Assembly (NCBI RefSeq): GCF_003860135.1
Contig: NZ_RQYN01000039.1
Span: 1-32,278, forward strand
DNA from: Tannerella forsythia
GTDB lineage: Bacteria > Bacteroidota > Bacteroidia > Bacteroidales > Tannerellaceae
Length of the DNA stretch: 32,278 bases
Direction: 5' to 3'
Shown: one piece after another, positions 5,066 through 32,278 of the stretch
How positions within the stretch are numbered: position 1 is the first letter of the stretch
How the letters are laid out: each line of letters opens with the position of its first letter
Program-made: the position numbers and the translations under genes
The notes under the pieces: model-generated
The model's database searches: none
Seen by the model: the letters and a program-made list of their open reading frames with translations, nothing else
What the model was told of the DNA's origin: nothing

Positions 5066-5446
5066 ATGAAAACTTTTACTGTTAAGTTGTTTGTTACAAT
5101 GTGGGTTTGCTTGCTTCCGTTTATTTCCGGATGCAAAAAAGAGAATGAATCTTCCCTCGATAAGTTGAATATTTCAGTATGTGGTGCTAAAAAACCGCAG
5201 TGGTTAGAAAAGGAAATCGCTTCCATTATACTCCGATCTTCAACATACAGGCCGACTCGTATTCTCGTCTATAGAGGCTCGGATAAGGAAATCATAGCTA
5301 TTGAAGATTCGACGAATTCGAGTATGGAACAGCAGCTTCGCTTTTTTGACTGTGCCGGAAACAAGGTGGCATTTAAAAGTGCCGAATATAACTCGTACGT
5401 AAAAAAATGGAAGCGCCGCGAGTTTTCGTTATTATGGACGAATTAG
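5066..5446 (+). CDS. Small predicted lipoprotein, unknown function
   Basis: A 126-residue protein with a signal peptide ending in the lipobox ISGC (Cys at about residue 23), followed by KKENESS. The mature part contains KPQWLEKEIASII and later LRFFDCAGNKVAF. This layout resembles small Bacteroidales lipoproteins that have a 'PWL..I..I' segment followed by a 'YDCEGN'-like strand. That resemblance is from memory and the family has no known function. It has its own likely promoter element 28 bp upstream. Its stop codon lies 36 bp before a 22-bp-phased repeat array. Confidence 0.65.
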   Translation: MKTFTVKLFVTMWVCLLPFISGCKKENESSLDKLNISVCGAKKPQWLEKEIASIILRSSTYRPTRILVYRGSDKEIIAIEDSTNSSMEQQLRFFDCAGNKVAFKSAEYNSYVKKWKRREFSLLWTN

Positions 5447-5482: not shown

Positions 5483-5839
5483 AGGATACGTTCCGAACGT
5501 ATTTTGGGTACGTTCGGAACGTCATTTAGGGTATTTCCTGAAGACATTTCGGGTATTTCCGAACCTGATTTGGGTACGTTCCGAACCTAATTCCGATACG
5601 TTCTGAGCTACCCTGTGATACGTTCTGAACGTATTTCAGGTACGTTCCGAACCACCCATCGATACGTTCCGAACGTACCGAAATATCTCTCCGAACCACC
5701 CGAAATCAGGTTCCGAACCGGTCATAAGTACCCAAATACCGTTCTGAACGTACCTGAATACCCTCTTGGACGTACCCAAATACCGTTTGGAACGTATCGA
5801 AATATCCATCCGAACCGGTCAGAACCTGTTTCCGAACGG
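5483..5839 (+). repeat. 22-bp-phased degenerate repeat array, copy 1
   Basis: This is 357 bp, about 16 units, between two convergent genes. Each unit is an 8-bp core, mostly TTCCGAAC (also TTCTGAAC, TTCGGAAC, TTTGGAAC), plus a 14-bp variable spacer. Successive cores are 22 bp apart, except one step of 31 bp near 5712-5742. Spacers are drawn from a small set, such as GTATTTCAGGTACG, CTGATTTGGGTACG and CACCCATCGATACG. The best units are dyads, for example ATACGTTCCGAACGTAT at 5486-5502. The array ends one base before the stop codon of the minus-strand gene at 5841. It is homologous, in opposite orientation, to the array at 31338-31733. The open frame across it (5615-5866) is not conserved in the other copy and I do not call it a gene. 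Confidence 0.9.
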
Positions 5840-5840
5840 A

Positions 5841-6998
5841 CTATTTCTTTGTTTTATACTTCATGATAACGAGTACGGGATTCGCTTCTTCGTCCAATTG
5901 TGTGGCAATGTCCTTGAGCGGGCCTTTCAGCTCATCTTTTTCATACGCATCAACGAGCTGATCGGCTGTCAGTATGTAGAATGCCGCGATTGTGCCGTTT
6001 ACCGGGTTTGAGCTCATATTCACTTCATGCTTATCGTAATCGGCATTGAATACGGTCGCGCGGTATATGGCTTTTTCTTCCGTGTCATACATCAAATCGG
6101 TTCTTGGAAATCCTTTTCCCGTCGTGAAATCAAACTCTTTCTTAATCGTTTGCAAAAAATAATAACGGTCGGTCATCGTGCCCATCGTAAGGAGTATCAG
6201 AGGATCTTCGGAGGTGGTTTTTACTAAAAACGGACGGAGGGTGTTTCCTTCCGACAAATAAACCGTATCGGTCGATGTTTCGATAAGCAGAAACTTGTCG
6301 TGCCAAGGGAGTATCGATTGGACGGTAATTACAGCAATGCCTTCCTTTTGTATAAGAGGCGCTTTAACGATTTCGAAAGGAATCGGGATCTTCCGTGCCA
6401 CGCTGCCATCCTGCTTCGAGATAAGGGCGTGGGAGAAACGGCCTTCCGAAGGCATTCCTTCCTTATGGTATATGGATATATCGTAGCCGATCAGATGCTC
6501 CTTGTCGTAATTGAAGAGAACCGAATACGAAGCGCTGTCCGCGTGGTGGAAGCTCCGTTTGAAACGACCTTCCAAGTCATACACGAATATTTTCCTCATG
6601 GGCATGCAATTGACAAACATTTCCTCGTTGGCTTCGTCCAGTACTATTCGGTAGATGGATGTATATTCTTCGGCTCCTTGTCCCTTTCTGTTTATTTTTC
6701 TGATGCCTTTCCCTGTTTGTCGGTCAAAGAGAAAAATATCGCCGTCGGCTGTTCGATTTTTGGCTAAAATGTACCGGTCGCCAATGTCCAGCACATGGCC
6801 TTGGGTGATGAATTCATCGTTCGTTTCGAGCGGAATATATTCCACCTCCAGAAAATCCTGAAGCATCAGTTTTTTCTCCGGATAATCGGCATGTACATCG
6901 ACTGTGATGATCGCTGTTTCTTTTTCTTGGTTGTTGTTTCCGCATCCGGTGCATAAGGCCATTAGAAAGACGGATGCAATGATTTTTTTTCCTCTCAT
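5841..6998 (-). CDS. 6-bladed beta-propeller lipoprotein
   Basis: A 385-residue protein with a lipoprotein signal (MRGKKI, hydrophobic stretch, lipobox LCTGC with Cys at about residue 19). The mature part starts with the segment LEVEYIPLETNDEFITQG, which is characteristic of the Bacteroidota '6-bladed beta-propeller' family. Strand repeats follow of the type ILAKNRTADGDIFLFDRQTGK and KIFVYDLEGRFKRSF. Such proteins are cell-envelope lipoproteins, often many per genome; substrate or partner is unknown. The stop codon TAG at 5843-5841 is directly abutted by the repeat array, so the gene has no room for an ordinary downstream terminator other than the array itself. Confidence 0.8.
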   Translation of the reverse strand: MRGKKIIASVFLMALCTGCGNNNQEKETAIITVDVHADYPEKKLMLQDFLEVEYIPLETNDEFITQGHVLDIGDRYILAKNRTADGDIFLFDRQTGKGIRKINRKGQGAEEYTSIYRIVLDEANEEMFVNCMPMRKIFVYDLEGRFKRSFHHADSASYSVLFNYDKEHLIGYDISIYHKEGMPSEGRFSHALISKQDGSVARKIPIPFEIVKAPLIQKEGIAVITVQSILPWHDKFLLIETSTDTVYLSEGNTLRPFLVKTTSEDPLILLTMGTMTDRYYFLQTIKKEFDFTTGKGFPRTDLMYDTEEKAIYRATVFNADYDKHEVNMSSNPVNGTIAAFYILTADQLVDAYEKDELKGPLKDIATQLDEEANPVLVIMKYKTKK

Positions 6999-16518: not shown

Positions 16519-17247
16519 ATGAAAGCAATATATCTGATATTCATAAGCGTGACAACCGCATTCTGCTGTACGAATGACATGTTCGCACAGAAGGCGGAGC
16601 GGTCGCATATCCGAAAAGGGAACAAATTGTACAAAGAAGAGAAATATACCGAATCGGAGATTGCTTACCGACAGAGTATTGAGGTAAATCCGCGCTCTGT
16701 CGAAGGCTCATACAATCTGGGAAATGCTTTGTATAAGCAGGAAAAATATCCGGAAGCGGCCGAACAATATCAACAGATCGCCGGTCAGAGAGAGCGTCTG
16801 ATGGCTGAAAATCCGGCCAATGTCCAACGATTGGCGGAAGTTTTTCACAACCTCGGGAATATTCAGATGAAGAACAAGGACTATGCCAAAAGTATCGAGG
16901 CTTATAAACAGTCATTGAGGATGAATCCGAAAGATGAAGAGACACGGTATAACTTAGCCTTGGCTCAAAAGTTACTGAATGATCAGCAGCAACAAAATCA
17001 AGACCAGCAGAATCAGGATCAGCAACAACAGCAAGAGCAAGAGCAAAATCAGGAACAGCAACAGCAGCAGAATGAGCAGCAAGAGAATAAGACACAGGAA
17101 CAGAAACAGGAGAATGAACAAATGAGCAGAGATAATGCACAACAGATTCTCGATGCTTTCCTGCAGGACGAAAAAGACACACAGGAGAAAGTTAAAAAGG
17201 CTCAAGCCAAACATCAAGAACGTCGTAAAACAGATAAACAATGGTAA
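16519..17247 (+). CDS. batC: BatC, TPR protein with Gln-rich tail
   Basis: A 242-residue protein with a signal peptide (cleavage near FAQ-KAE, residue 24) and tetratricopeptide repeats at about 30-150 (GNKLYKEEKYTESEIAYRQS, SYNLGNALYKQEKYPEAAEQ, NLGNIQMKNKDYAKSIEAYK). A strongly Gln-rich tract at about 156-201, coded by mixed CAG/CAA, is followed by a charged helical end (NAQQILDAFLQDEKDTQEKV). TPRs suggest a periplasmic adaptor within the Bat complex. The Gln-rich tail is low-complexity and may vary in length between strains. It reads almost into batD. Confidence 0.9.
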   Translation: MKAIYLIFISVTTAFCCTNDMFAQKAERSHIRKGNKLYKEEKYTESEIAYRQSIEVNPRSVEGSYNLGNALYKQEKYPEAAEQYQQIAGQRERLMAENPANVQRLAEVFHNLGNIQMKNKDYAKSIEAYKQSLRMNPKDEETRYNLALAQKLLNDQQQQNQDQQNQDQQQQQEQEQNQEQQQQQNEQQENKTQEQKQENEQMSRDNAQQILDAFLQDEKDTQEKVKKAQAKHQERRKTDKQW

Positions 17248-27808: not shown

Positions 27809-28443
27809 TTAAGATAAAGTGTTTTGAATTCAATCTGTTTGCCGAAAACACGTATGTCCTTTACGACGAAACGAAAGAAGCGGCAATTATCGATTGCGGC
27901 TGCATGTCGGCCGGTGAAGAGAAGGTCTTGTCGGATTTTATTGCGGCTCATGAGCTGGTACCGAAGCTACTGCTTTGCACGCACCTGCATCTTGACCATA
28001 TTTTAGGCAACGCCTTTATCCACAGGACGTATGGTCTTTCGCCCAAAGCACATCGGTTGGAAGTTGAACAGATTCCTCCTCTCGACATTCAGATGAAACA
28101 CATGGGACTTCATGCTTCCGGCGATACCGTTCCGGTAACGGATTTTCTGAGCGAGAACGAGCCGATCCGTTTCGGTCATTCGGAGTTGGCCGTATTATTC
28201 GTCCCGGGGCATTCGCCCGGCAGTCTGGCCTTTTACAGTCCGGCGGATGGTTTCATTATCTCCGGAGACGCCTTGTTTGCGGGAAGTATCGGACGAACAG
28301 ACTTGTGGGGGGGGAGTTACGGCATGCTTATTTCGGCGATTCAAGACAAAATTTTATCCTTGCCCGACCAGACGCTTGTCTGTCCGGGGCACGGCCCGTC
28401 TACGACCGTCATCGAAGAGAAATTACATAATCCTTATTTATAA
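27805..28443 (+). CDS. Metallo-beta-lactamase-fold hydrolase (glyoxalase II-like)
   Basis: A 212-residue hydrolase with the metal-binding THLHLDH motif (His60, His62, Asp64, His65), a further metal His in VPGHSPGSLAFY, the bridging Asp in IISGDALFAGSIGRTD, and the last His in CPGHGPST. These match hydroxyacylglutathione hydrolase-like (YcbL-type) proteins, which use two metal ions to cleave thioesters. The C-terminal glutathione-binding domain of true GloB is absent, so the substrate is uncertain. It overlaps rsmG by 4 nt and ends 19 bp before gcvP. Confidence 0.9.
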   Translation: MIKIKCFEFNLFAENTYVLYDETKEAAIIDCGCMSAGEEKVLSDFIAAHELVPKLLLCTHLHLDHILGNAFIHRTYGLSPKAHRLEVEQIPPLDIQMKHMGLHASGDTVPVTDFLSENEPIRFGHSELAVLFVPGHSPGSLAFYSPADGFIISGDALFAGSIGRTDLWGGSYGMLISAIQDKILSLPDQTLVCPGHGPSTTVIEEKLHNPYL

Positions 28444-28462
28444 ATATTGTATAAAGTATAAC

Positions 28463-31315
28463 ATGGAGACCAACAAATTTGCAAATCGCCACATAGGCGT
28501 CACAACCGATGAAGACAAAGCCGCGATGCTTCAAACCGTCGGTGTGAAATCGACAGACGAATTGATTGACCAGATTATCCCGTCGAATATTCGTCTGAGA
28601 AAACCGCTTCATTTACCCGCACCGATGACGGAGCGGGAATTTGCGGAACACATTGCCGAGCTTGCCTCTAAGAATAAAATCTTTACATCATATATCGGCA
28701 TGGGCTGGTATGATACGATATGCCCTGCTCCCATTCTGCGGAATGTGTTTGAGAATCCGGGCTGGTACACTTCGTACACGCCTTATCAGGCCGAAGTATC
28801 GCAAGGCCGGTTAGAAGCCTTGTTTAACTTCCAGACCATGATTTGCGAACTGACCGGCATGTCGCTGACCAACTGTTCGCTGCTCGACGAAGCAACGGCG
28901 GCTGCCGAAGCCGCGACGATGCTCTTCAATACGCGCAGCCGTGAGCAAGTAAAAAATGAAGCGAATCAGTTGTTTGTAGACGAAAACGTGTTGGAGTCGA
29001 CCTTGGCCGTTATACAGACACGAATGGCTCCGCAGGGTATCGAGGTGGTGACGGGCAATTACCGTGAAGTCGCGTTATCCGGCAAGATGTTCGGGGCGAT
29101 TCTTCAATATCCTGACGGTAACGGCACAGTCAACGACTATCAGGATTTCGTGGCGGCAGCGCATGCCGAGGGGATACGCGTTGCCGTAGCGGCCGATCTG
29201 ATGAGCCTCGTCCTGCTGACACCTCCCGGCGAATGGGGAGCAGACGTCGTGTTCGGGACTTCGCAGCGTTTCGGGATTCCGATGTTCTACGGCGGGCCTT
29301 CGGCCGCGTATTTCGCGACGAAAGACGAGTACAAGCGAATGATTCCGGGACGTATCATCGGCCTCTCGGTCGATGCCTACGGACATCCGGCTTACCGTCT
29401 GGCGCTTCAGACACGCGAGCAACATATCAAGCGCGAGAAAGCGACATCGAACATCTGTACCGCGCAGGCGCTTCTGGCCACGATGGCAGGTTTTTACGCG
29501 GTGTATCACGGAGCCGAAGGGTTAACGGATATCGCTTCACGGATTCACCGTTACGCCGGTTTTCTGGCCGACGAACTCGAAAAAATTGGCTATAAACAAC
29601 TGAATACAAATTTCTTCGATACCTTAAAGATCGAACTGCCCTCCCATGTGCCGATGAACACGTTGCGTGAAATCGCGTTGGAGTGTAACATCAACCTCCG
29701 GTATTTCGAAGAGGGGCATGTGGGTATCAGTATCGATGAAACAACGCGTCCCGAGCATCTCAACATCTTGTTGCAGATCTTTTCCGGGGTTGCGGGACTG
29801 CCCAATCCGCCGGCAACGGATATCCCCGCAAAGCTCTATTTCGATCTTACATTCCTGCGTACGTCGTCTTTCCTGCAACAGGATACGTTTAAAAAATACC
29901 GTACCGAAACGGAGTTGATGCGATATATCAAGCGTTTGGAACGCAGAGATATTTCGCTGGCTCATTCGATGATTCCGCTGGGATCGTGCACGATGAAGCT
30001 GAACGCGGCCTCCGAATTGCTGCCCTTGCTCAATCCCGCTTTCCAGCATATCCATCCTTACGCACCGGTCGATCAGGTGAATGGTTATATGGAACTGATT
30101 GAAAATCTGTCGTCATACCTGATCGAGATTACCGGTCTGAAGGGGGTAACCCTGCAACCGAATTCGGGGGCGGCCGGTGAATACGCGGGATTGCGGATCA
30201 TTCGTACTTACCTCGAAAGCATCGGACAGGGACACCGCCATGTGGTGCTGCTGCCCGCTTCGGCACACGGAACCAATCCGGCCAGCGCCATTCAGTGCGG
30301 ATTCACAACGGTGACCGTACGCTGCGACGAAAAAGGGAATATCGATTTGACCGACTTCCGTACGAAAGCCGAAGAGCAGAAAGACGTCCTTGCCGCAAGT
30401 ATGATTACTTATCCGTCTACGCACGGTATCTTCGAGGCAGATATCAAGGAGATGTGCGACATCGTTCACGCGTGCGGAGGACAAGTGTATATGGATGGCG
30501 CCAACATGAATGCGCAGGTCGGACTGACCAGCCCGGGAGTAATCGGCGCCGATGTTTGCCATCTGAACCTGCATAAAACGTTTGCGTCGCCTCATGGCGG
30601 TGGCGGACCCGGTGTCGGGCCGGTCTGCGTGGCCGAGCATTTGCTTCCTTTCCTCCCCTCCCACCCCGTGACGTTCGGTAACAGCCGAAACACCGTTGCG
30701 TCAGCTCCTTACGGAAGCGCCGGCATCTTGCCGATCACGTATGCCTACATTCGTCTGATGGGAGCTGAAGGACTGACCGAAGCCACGCGAATTGCGATAC
30801 TGAATGCCAACTATCTGGCGGCAAAACTGAAAGAGGCTTACGGTATTGTCTACACGGGAGCGAACGAGCGCGTCGGTCATGAGCTGATACTCGAATGTCG
30901 TGTGCTTAAAGAACGTTCCGGAATCGATGAGAACGATATTGCCAAACGGTTGATGGATTTCGGATACCATGCTCCCACCCTTTCTTTTCCGGTGCACGGA
31001 ACCTTGATGGTAGAGCCGACCGAAAGCGAAAGCAAGGAGGAGTTAGATCGTTTTGTCGAAGTGATGGAATGTATTCGTCGAGAAATAGATGAAGTGGAAA
31101 GCGGTATCGCATCGAAAGAAGATAACGTGCTCAAAAACGCTCCGCACCCCGAATACGAGGTCGCTGCCGACGAATGGAACCATCCTTATTCACGTTCGAA
31201 GGCGGCATTCCCGCTGGAATGGCTGCATGACAATAAGTTCTGGATTAATGTGGCGCGTGTCAACAATGCGTATGGCGACCGCAACTTAGTCCCGACCCTT
31301 TGCAGTTGCCAATAA
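28463..31315 (+). CDS. gcvP: Glycine dehydrogenase (decarboxylating), P protein
   Basis: A 950-residue PLP enzyme of the glycine cleavage system. It decarboxylates glycine and passes the aminomethyl group to lipoylated GcvH. Both halves of the fused P protein are present. The N-terminal half starts MetGluThr-NKFANRHIG and contains SYIGMGWYDT and YTPYQAEVSQGRLEAL. The C-terminal half holds the PLP lysine Lys705 in LNLHKTFASPHGGGGPG. Length matches the usual bacterial form (about 950). The frame is open upstream to 28247 inside the preceding gene; the ATG at 28463 is chosen by homology. The stop codon lies 22 bp before the second repeat array. Confidence 0.97.
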   Translation: METNKFANRHIGVTTDEDKAAMLQTVGVKSTDELIDQIIPSNIRLRKPLHLPAPMTEREFAEHIAELASKNKIFTSYIGMGWYDTICPAPILRNVFENPGWYTSYTPYQAEVSQGRLEALFNFQTMICELTGMSLTNCSLLDEATAAAEAATMLFNTRSREQVKNEANQLFVDENVLESTLAVIQTRMAPQGIEVVTGNYREVALSGKMFGAILQYPDGNGTVNDYQDFVAAAHAEGIRVAVAADLMSLVLLTPPGEWGADVVFGTSQRFGIPMFYGGPSAAYFATKDEYKRMIPGRIIGLSVDAYGHPAYRLALQTREQHIKREKATSNICTAQALLATMAGFYAVYHGAEGLTDIASRIHRYAGFLADELEKIGYKQLNTNFFDTLKIELPSHVPMNTLREIALECNINLRYFEEGHVGISIDETTRPEHLNILLQIFSGVAGLPNPPATDIPAKLYFDLTFLRTSSFLQQDTFKKYRTETELMRYIKRLERRDISLAHSMIPLGSCTMKLNAASELLPLLNPAFQHIHPYAPVDQVNGYMELIENLSSYLIEITGLKGVTLQPNSGAAGEYAGLRIIRTYLESIGQGHRHVVLLPASAHGTNPASAIQCGFTTVTVRCDEKGNIDLTDFRTKAEEQKDVLAASMITYPSTHGIFEADIKEMCDIVHACGGQVYMDGANMNAQVGLTSPGVIGADVCHLNLHKTFASPHGGGGPGVGPVCVAEHLLPFLPSHPVTFGNSRNTVASAPYGSAGILPITYAYIRLMGAEGLTEATRIAILNANYLAAKLKEAYGIVYTGANERVGHELILECRVLKERSGIDENDIAKRLMDFGYHAPTLSFPVHGTLMVEPTESESKEELDRFVEVMECIRREIDEVESGIASKEDNVLKNAPHPEYEVAADEWNHPYSRSKAAFPLEWLHDNKFWINVARVNNAYGDRNLVPTLCSCQ

Positions 31316-31337: not shown

Positions 31338-31733
31338 GGATATGTAATACCGTCCGGAAACCGGTTATGATACGTTCGGAAAGGTATTATACCACGTTCC
31401 GTGGGGTATTTGGGTACGTCCCGAGGGGTATTTAATACGGTTCGGAAATTGATTATGACCGGTTCGGAACCTGATTTCGGGTGGTTCGGAGAGATATTTC
31501 GGTACGTTCGGAACATATCGATGGGTGCTTCGGAAACCTATCGACGAGTGGTTCGGAATATCGGAATTAGGTTCGGAACGTACCCAAATCAGGTTCGGAA
31601 ATACCCGGAATGTATTTCGGAAATACCTTAAATAGGGTTCGGAGGGGTATTTAATACGGTTCGGAACGTATCGGAATCAGGTTCGGAACCTCCCTAAATG
31701 ACGTTCGGAACGTATATCCGATACGTTCCGAAC
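31338..31733 (-). repeat. 22-bp-phased degenerate repeat array, copy 2
   Basis: Exactly 396 bp, or 18 units of 22 bp, between convergent genes. Read on the plus strand the unit is a variable 14-bp spacer followed by a GTTCGGAA-type core; 15 of 18 units are exactly 22 bp, with one 20 and two 23. The last unit is a clean dyad, ATACGTTCCGAACGTAT at 31721-31737. The array is the reverse-complement relative of copy 1: 31453-31514 is identical over 62 bp to the complement of 5666-5727, and 31559-31607 over 49 bp to that of 5550-5598. A 25-bp block occurs twice within the array (31423-31447 and 31642-31666). It starts 22 bp after the gcvP stop and ends 13 bp before the stop of the minus-strand gene. 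Confidence 0.92.
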
Positions 31734-31746
31734 GTATCTATGCGAC

Positions 31747-32259
31747 TTACGGTGTCGTTTCGCCTCCGGCAGGCGGAGTGGGAACATCCGGCTCTTCGTC
31801 CGGTTTGCGGCCGCCATGATAATGCTGCTTCATGTCCTGATAGATCGACGTGGTGCCCGGTTCGTTCTCCGAAGCCAGATACTTCACGTAACGATAATAC
31901 GCGAAGGTACTCTGGAGGTTATCGAAATCGAGCAACGTCTTCGTGTCGCGCAACTTTTCGGTCACGATCGTCAGCTCGCGAAGCGGTGCTTCGAGCCGGG
32001 TGCGTGCCGCGTAGTCGCGGTCGAATTCGGCCTTGTCGATGGTGCGCGGCATCGTTTGCGGCGCCTTTTCCATGTAGAACTTGGCCTTGTCTACCAGAAG
32101 TTTGTTGCGGTCGGCAATGCTGCCGTACTGACGACGTTCTTCGGGCGTAAGGTTCACGGCCTTACCCTCCATCACTTCGTTCAGCATGCGGATGGCGGCG
32201 TTCATCTTCTCGACGTCTTCGTCCGAGAAGGAAACGGAAATGATATTATCAATAGCCAT
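31747..32259 (-). CDS. Conserved hypothetical protein, helical, Pro-rich end
   Basis: A 170-residue protein with no signal peptide or membrane segment. It is mostly helical and charged (DVEKMNAAIRMLNEVMEGKA, LTPEERRQYGSIADRNKLLV, IDKAEFDRDYAARTRLEAPL, RDTKTLLDFDNLQSTFAYYR). It ends in a short Pro/Gly-rich tail (EEPDVPTPPAGGETTP). I recall similar unnamed proteins in Bacteroidales, often in several copies, but no function. A GTG at 32265 is in frame; the ATG at 32259 (MAIDNIISVSF) is the better start. The promoter would lie beyond the window. Its stop is 13 bp from the repeat array. Confidence 0.7.
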   Translation of the reverse strand: MAIDNIISVSFSDEDVEKMNAAIRMLNEVMEGKAVNLTPEERRQYGSIADRNKLLVDKAKFYMEKAPQTMPRTIDKAEFDRDYAARTRLEAPLRELTIVTEKLRDTKTLLDFDNLQSTFAYYRYVKYLASENEPGTTSIYQDMKQHYHGGRKPDEEPDVPTPPAGGETTP

Positions 32260-32278
32260 ATACACAAACTTTTATCAC

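Follow-up and report, generated by a model that had tools for sequence, protein, structure and literature searches.

The window (the whole stretch of 32,278 nucleotides of Tannerella forsythia DNA that was analysed) contains two arrays of a short, phased repeat. The array of primary interest, array 2, lies at positions 31,345 to 31,739 on the forward strand, between the 3′ end of the gcvP ORF (glycine cleavage P-protein; 28,247 to 31,315, forward strand) and the 3′ end of an ORF of 172 amino acids on the reverse strand (31,747 to 32,265), which is without a Pfam match and has a relative with 68% identity in a Bacteroidia MAG. Array 2 comprises 18 units, each about 22 bp long and built on the core TTCNGAA, and is a member of the family called type A here. 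Chaining of the TTCNGAA cores gives steps of 22 bp throughout, apart from a single 23-bp and a single 20-bp step. Self-identity at lag 22 is 0.56 over positions 31,346 to 31,735 (z 12.2), a value that 0 of 300 dinucleotide shuffles reached at the best lag between 15 and 30, and the window has 21 occurrences of GTTCGGAA, as opposed to 2.04 expected from shuffling. Thus, the 18 units in preserved phase that were described in an earlier note are real. The same note described an 8-bp core: the core does recur, but is better written as TTCNGAA, which is near-palindromic, the last unit (31,718 to 31,739, reverse strand) having the opposite centre base (TTCCGAA) and forming an inverted pair with the unit preceding it. 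Three early units, with centres at 31,355, 31,399 and 31,421, are degenerate.

Array 1 (5,483 to 5,843, reverse strand) belongs to the same family, and most of its units are in the TTCCGAA orientation when read on the forward strand. It has 11 units in a strict chain (5,483 to 5,725), followed by irregular spacing and further units, with a lag-22 z of 14.3 (0 of 300 shuffles). It is flanked by the 3′ ends of an ORF of 126 amino acids without a Pfam match (5,066 to 5,446, forward strand) and of a 6-bladed beta-propeller (DUF5128) ORF (5,841 to 6,998, reverse strand), so that arrays 1 and 2 are each flanked by convergent ORFs. Elsewhere in the window, a CAG/CAA-rich tandem repeat (17,005 to 17,082) lies within an ORF (16,519 to 17,247).

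The family is dispersed in the organism's own draft genome (G000; 3.3 Mb in 226 contigs), in which a pattern of two cores at 22-bp spacing has 75 placements, compared with 5 for the reversed control. Arrays are present in nine places on eight contigs (C47, C153, C174, C177, C191, C163, C194 with two units, and C159 twice), and the earlier proposal of an intergenic repeat class with more copies is thereby supported, with arrays on seven further contigs. Contigs C47, C153, C174 and C177 start in an array and C163 ends in one, which implies that the assembly breaks there. Array DNA matched five of 61 genomes and a profile of four units (R1) matched six of 41 genomes of the genus at E 0.001, the own genome included in both counts; a comparison of array DNA with plasmids gave no match. 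By DNA match and by profile, the same family is present in G000, in G025 and in G030, the closed genome of a sister species in the same genus. At matching loci in sister species the flanks are 89–98% identical and the array sizes differ: the counterparts of array 1 have 18 units in G025 and 3 in G026, and the C194 locus has 2 units in G000, 15 in G025 and 8 in G026. In G025 (L081, compared with window positions 31,338 to 31,745), the gcvP side of the array has a different partner from the one it has in G000, due either to rearrangement through arrays or to misassembly.

In 59 tiles of four units, 230 of 235 units have a purine at position −9 and 232 of 236 have a pyrimidine at position +9. The arms flanking the TTCNGAA core are drawn from a limited set of variants, which recur between loci. 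Phase and core are kept while the rest varies, as the earlier note had stated, but its differing 14-bp spacers are not free to vary. Among 158 non-redundant sequence windows, positions of the same arm share up to 0.69 bits of mutual information, a strong linkage, and the two sides of the core, or of the spacer, are nearly independent; this is the pattern that shuffling of 11-bp half-units would produce. The cores had also been thought to lie on nearly the same face of the DNA. The DNA helix has 10.5 bp per turn, and the idea holds for neighbours only, as steps of 22 bp drift by about 34 degrees per unit. Array 2 folds more strongly than its shuffles (z −6.5 and −4.2 as RNA for the two strands, −5.8 as DNA). 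The unit core is near-palindromic, some arrays are of mixed orientation, and the arm positions show little compensatory covariation; although folding beats the shuffles, paired positions hardly covary, and local RNA hairpins were therefore not adopted as an explanation. A role in termination, another of the earlier suggestions, is not supported, with 1 terminator-like site against 0.7 expected, i.e., chance level.

In G030, five arrays adjoin a pair of tandem tyrosine recombinase genes. The first recombinase has 13 close copies in this genome (74–100% identity), and as judged by eye all 13 have the same leader (slightly different at its end in L076) followed directly on the right by an array, of type A in seven cases and of type B (core TTGATSAC) in six. 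Right flanks pass the period tests in 12 of the 13 cases: six of the seven type A flanks at 0 of 300 shuffles, the exception being L153 with about three units (19 of 300 and 89 of 1000 shuffles), and all six type B flanks at lag 42–43 (0–5 of 1000 shuffles), with lag 21 supported too in four of the six (0–4 of 1000). Left ends, which were searched for with the left 541 bp of an island (the left end of L198 being a partial match), can be paired with all 13 recombinase copies, presumably correctly, from coordinates and orientation, and delimit islands of about 10 to 44 kb. On the left flank, 12 of the 13 islands have array sequence of the same type as on the right (nine hits of 70–131 bp, three of only 21–30 bp), in a search set that took in each island's own right array. 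No array was found on the left flank of the L187 island, and the left flank of L186 (type A) has an additional, weaker match to type B. In two instances, a single array lies between two islands that face each other, hence the 12 left flanks represent 10 arrays.

An island of 15,420 bp is present in two copies that are 99.98% identical (2,252,582 to 2,268,001 and 1,604,427 to 1,619,845), copy 1 of which is inserted inside a type A array. Both copies end in the first unit and then run into different arrays. When the flanks of copy 1 are rejoined, they give AATATGGTTCAGGACGTGATTA, an in-phase unit that is found intact in the G030 array at 193.8 kb; over 157 bp across the joint, identity with this uninterrupted array (which itself adjoins another island at one end) is 95.5%, without gaps. 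At four other rejoined type A sites, the neighbouring cores lie at multiples of 21–22 bp, with a few extra core matches half a unit off. The left junction in G030 reads ...GGTTC/GGGAGAAAACTATT and the right junction ...AATAGTT/GGTTCNGRAC. At the level of sequence, the G030 islands are inserted in arrays, at the unit core, with an in-phase unit restored and with an array type that matches the recombinase type.

In the 15.4-kb island, all seven ORFs that were tried have Pfam matches. Its mobility genes encode a MobA/VirD2-type relaxase, a NikA-like mobilization protein and a primase-like protein of Toprim/DnaG type; the other cargo comprises DUF6769, an RND efflux pump with its outer-membrane part, a membrane-fusion protein and a P-type ATPase. 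Judged by this content, the island is an integrative mobilizable element. The G030 islands have two tyrosine recombinases in tandem, the second gene being only partly matched in L156. The recombinases were compared between islands at type A and type B arrays (omitting L121, a duplicate of L078, and for the second protein also L156, which is partial), using labelings that are not independent tests, because the copies are related. In the second recombinase, residues 110–210 differ by 0.419 between types compared with 0.093 within types, the most extreme of 462 labelings; the catalytic part has a very small difference (0.099 compared with 0.088; 8 of 462) and the arm domain has no signal (52 of 462). 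The first recombinase differs between types in the core-binding (2 of 924 labelings) and catalytic (4 of 924) domains; its arm domain does not (360 of 924). Core-type sites are recognized through the core-binding domain. The two array types go with two recombinase types, which differ most in the core-binding domain.

Outside G030, at relatives with 56–72% identity, eight of 12 right ends adjoin a 22-bp period (L164, L171, L200, L201, L229, L231, L232 and L233), i.e., no more than 6 of 1000 dinucleotide shuffles reached the lag-22 value of the adjoining 90 bp; no adjoining 22-bp array was found at the other four (L161, L162, L170 and L230). These ends were placed by eye, L228 was left out as it has no flank, and L164 and L171 come from one genome, that of Prevotella oral taxon 299. 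The arrays at these ends look, by eye, unrelated in sequence. In G229 (another family), its own 22-bp pattern has 132 placements at up to 3 mismatches compared with 0 in the control, hence the arrays of G229 are dispersed too. Within G030, two more distant copies (56%) adjoin an array with a 41-bp period, and three at 34% have no adjoining array. Two further array families in G030 (L154–L159 and L234–L235), namely type B and the one with a period of 41, each lie by their own recombinase lineage. Five of the six relatives at 45–50% that were examined (L160, L163, L166, L168 and L202, but not L167) adjoin a 3′ fragment of another tyrosine integrase gene, which as seen by eye starts at an ARH(S/T)(F/Y) motif on the 5′ side of the first recombinase and may be a second, different target. 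In G000, the near recombinase relatives are a copy at 47%, lying by an integrase fragment, and another at 56% whose gene is split over two frames. A link with a 22-bp, G-rich array of 12.8 copies near the broken recombinase L161 (contig C146 of G000) was dropped, because that array is farther upstream, past the leader, and no period is seen in the 90 bp at the presumed end.

On this evidence, array 2 is probably an extragenic landing array, i.e., a set of repeated attB sites, that belongs to a dispersed family and is unoccupied. Each 22-bp unit has a near-palindromic core, GTTCNGRAC, which could be used as an attB core, and in G030 it is inside that core that integrative mobilizable elements bearing a tandem pair of tyrosine recombinases are inserted. 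Since nearly all units carry the near-palindromic core, many would be usable, in either orientation, and insertion would preserve the phase. By extension, the arrays of the window may be usable as landing sites in the same way as the G030 arrays. Exchange at the cores, whether site-specific or homologous, would change array length and shuffle arms, and could thereby maintain phase and core while the rest drifts. The protein-binding array that the earlier note had envisaged is supported in one specific form, the core being a site at which islands with tyrosine recombinases have integrated in the sister species. Several observations go against landing arrays: no array is seen occupied in G000, whose near recombinase relatives are the two copies named above; G025 has arrays but no recombinase relative at E 1e-40; four of the 12 ends outside G030, and the left flank of the L187 island, are without an array; and the periods of type B (21 and 42–43) and type C (41) are not 22.

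A different cause for phase and core is offered by the view that the repeat belonged to the host first, in the form of extragenic, BIME-like elements that are retained for a function in the host (sites for nucleoid proteins or gyrase, or transcript ends), with islands exploiting harmless, redundant sites. This is compatible with a landing role and is quite possible, if somewhat short of an even chance: arrays occur at matching loci in G000, G025 and G026, in G025 without any recombinase relative at E 1e-40, both arrays of the window lie between convergent ORFs, and folding is strong. However, arrays at matching loci change fast in both size and content, the family is in only six of the 41 genus genomes, the terminator scan is at chance, and gene orientation is not convincing. 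An automatic, uncurated count gives 13 convergent, 7 co-directional, 3 divergent and 6 open cases; a preference for convergent genes is not claimed, as the count includes island-adjacent loci, at which an ORF of 82 amino acids that overlaps a recombinase gene is the nearest. More tentatively, and rather doubtfully, array and recombinase pair might be one co-evolving system across the Bacteroidales, in which each recombinase lineage would create, phase and homogenize a dispersed set of arrays of its own, with periods of about two helical turns (22, 21/43 or 41 bp), via exchange at unit cores, and the array of the window would have outlived its maker. Recombinase-made arrays would, if this were true, be safe, reusable docking sites.

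A neutral minisatellite, arising via slippage and unequal crossing-over, would account for duplications of higher order (L079, for instance, has a repeated block of 66 bp) and for the differences in array size between species, but is improbable given a core conserved far above the arms in many loci, the purine at −9 and pyrimidine at +9, and the use of arrays as the insertion site for 13 islands. That the array is the terminal part of a mobile element and is carried with it was an early reading, in keeping with the array beside each of the 13 close recombinase copies; it was rejected on the two-copy island comparison, in which the nearly identical copies stop within the first unit, with a different array beyond each, and on the rejoined flanks with their in-phase unit. 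Arrays also lie on both sides of islands and stand alone in G000 and G025, which makes this very unlikely. Least credible of all is a guide-RNA array, CRISPR- or TIGR-like, although the units are regular and have variable parts: the unit of 22 bp, which the earlier note had rightly judged too short, and the arm variants that recur between loci contrast with the long repeats and unique spacers of CRISPR, and Rfam has no match in the window.

Among known systems, integron attC arrays are also repeated sites at which a tyrosine recombinase acts, but here there are no cassettes between sites, and the recombinases score 35 and 49 bits against a cut-off of 265 for integron-type integrases. We know of no name for this class of phased intergenic repeats, and no description of 22-bp landing arrays was found in the limited collection of literature searched. 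The closest known counterparts, as far as the available parts of the sources extend, are REP/BIME elements as targets of insertion sequences and MTnPi1-like mobilizable elements. REP/BIME are dispersed extragenic palindromic units in mosaics and specific targets for mobile DNA, such as ISPpu9, ISPpu10 and ISPa11 (PMC1525189); the present arrays are likewise dispersed, extragenic and multi-copy (nine places in G000, at least 11 loci in G030), but are phased 22-bp arrays of many units and other sequence, and their users are 10–44-kb islands with tyrosine recombinase pairs rather than small insertion sequences with transposases. MTnPi1-3 of Prevotella intermedia are mobilizable transposons with two tandem integrases, for which excision was observed (PMC4755523); such a tandem pair has been termed a "Tyr duo" (PMC5704250). 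The G030 islands resemble them in having two tandem, unlike tyrosine recombinases, a relaxase, a primase, short (11-bp) att sites and several copies per genome, whereas the part of that report available does not describe MTnPi1-3 as lying inside phased repeat arrays, and treats the 188-bp PINSR repeat as separate from them (PMC4755523). The BrickBuilt MITE of Porphyromonas gingivalis is similar as an intergenic array in the Bacteroidales with units of about two turns without spacers, which breaks assemblies; it differs in its leader and tail with IS-like inverted ends and in its 23-nt unit AGAYCATARTATCCTCTCRTRTG, a published consensus that by inspection does not agree with the unit counts here, and the available part of its description reports no recombinase islands (PMC4596501).

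Landing arrays would provide a concrete role for a class of phased intergenic repeats, suggest how 13 islands fit one 3-Mb genome, and be likely spots of assembly breaks and rearrangement. The natural recombinase–target pairs, with their greatest differences in the core-binding domain, may be useful for studying site choice by tyrosine recombinases. A MITE-like dispersal, considered from a shared edge of two G030 arrays, was set aside, as the edge motif GAAGCTGTTTGGRATTTATTTCGG was read as an unrelated repeat: it occurs in 18 places in G030 at up to 3 mismatches, with two copies at array edges, and may represent an insertion sequence end. G030 also carries short repeats, stepped by 7 bp and with inverted copies, at L074:4790–4990 and L076:5429–5513.
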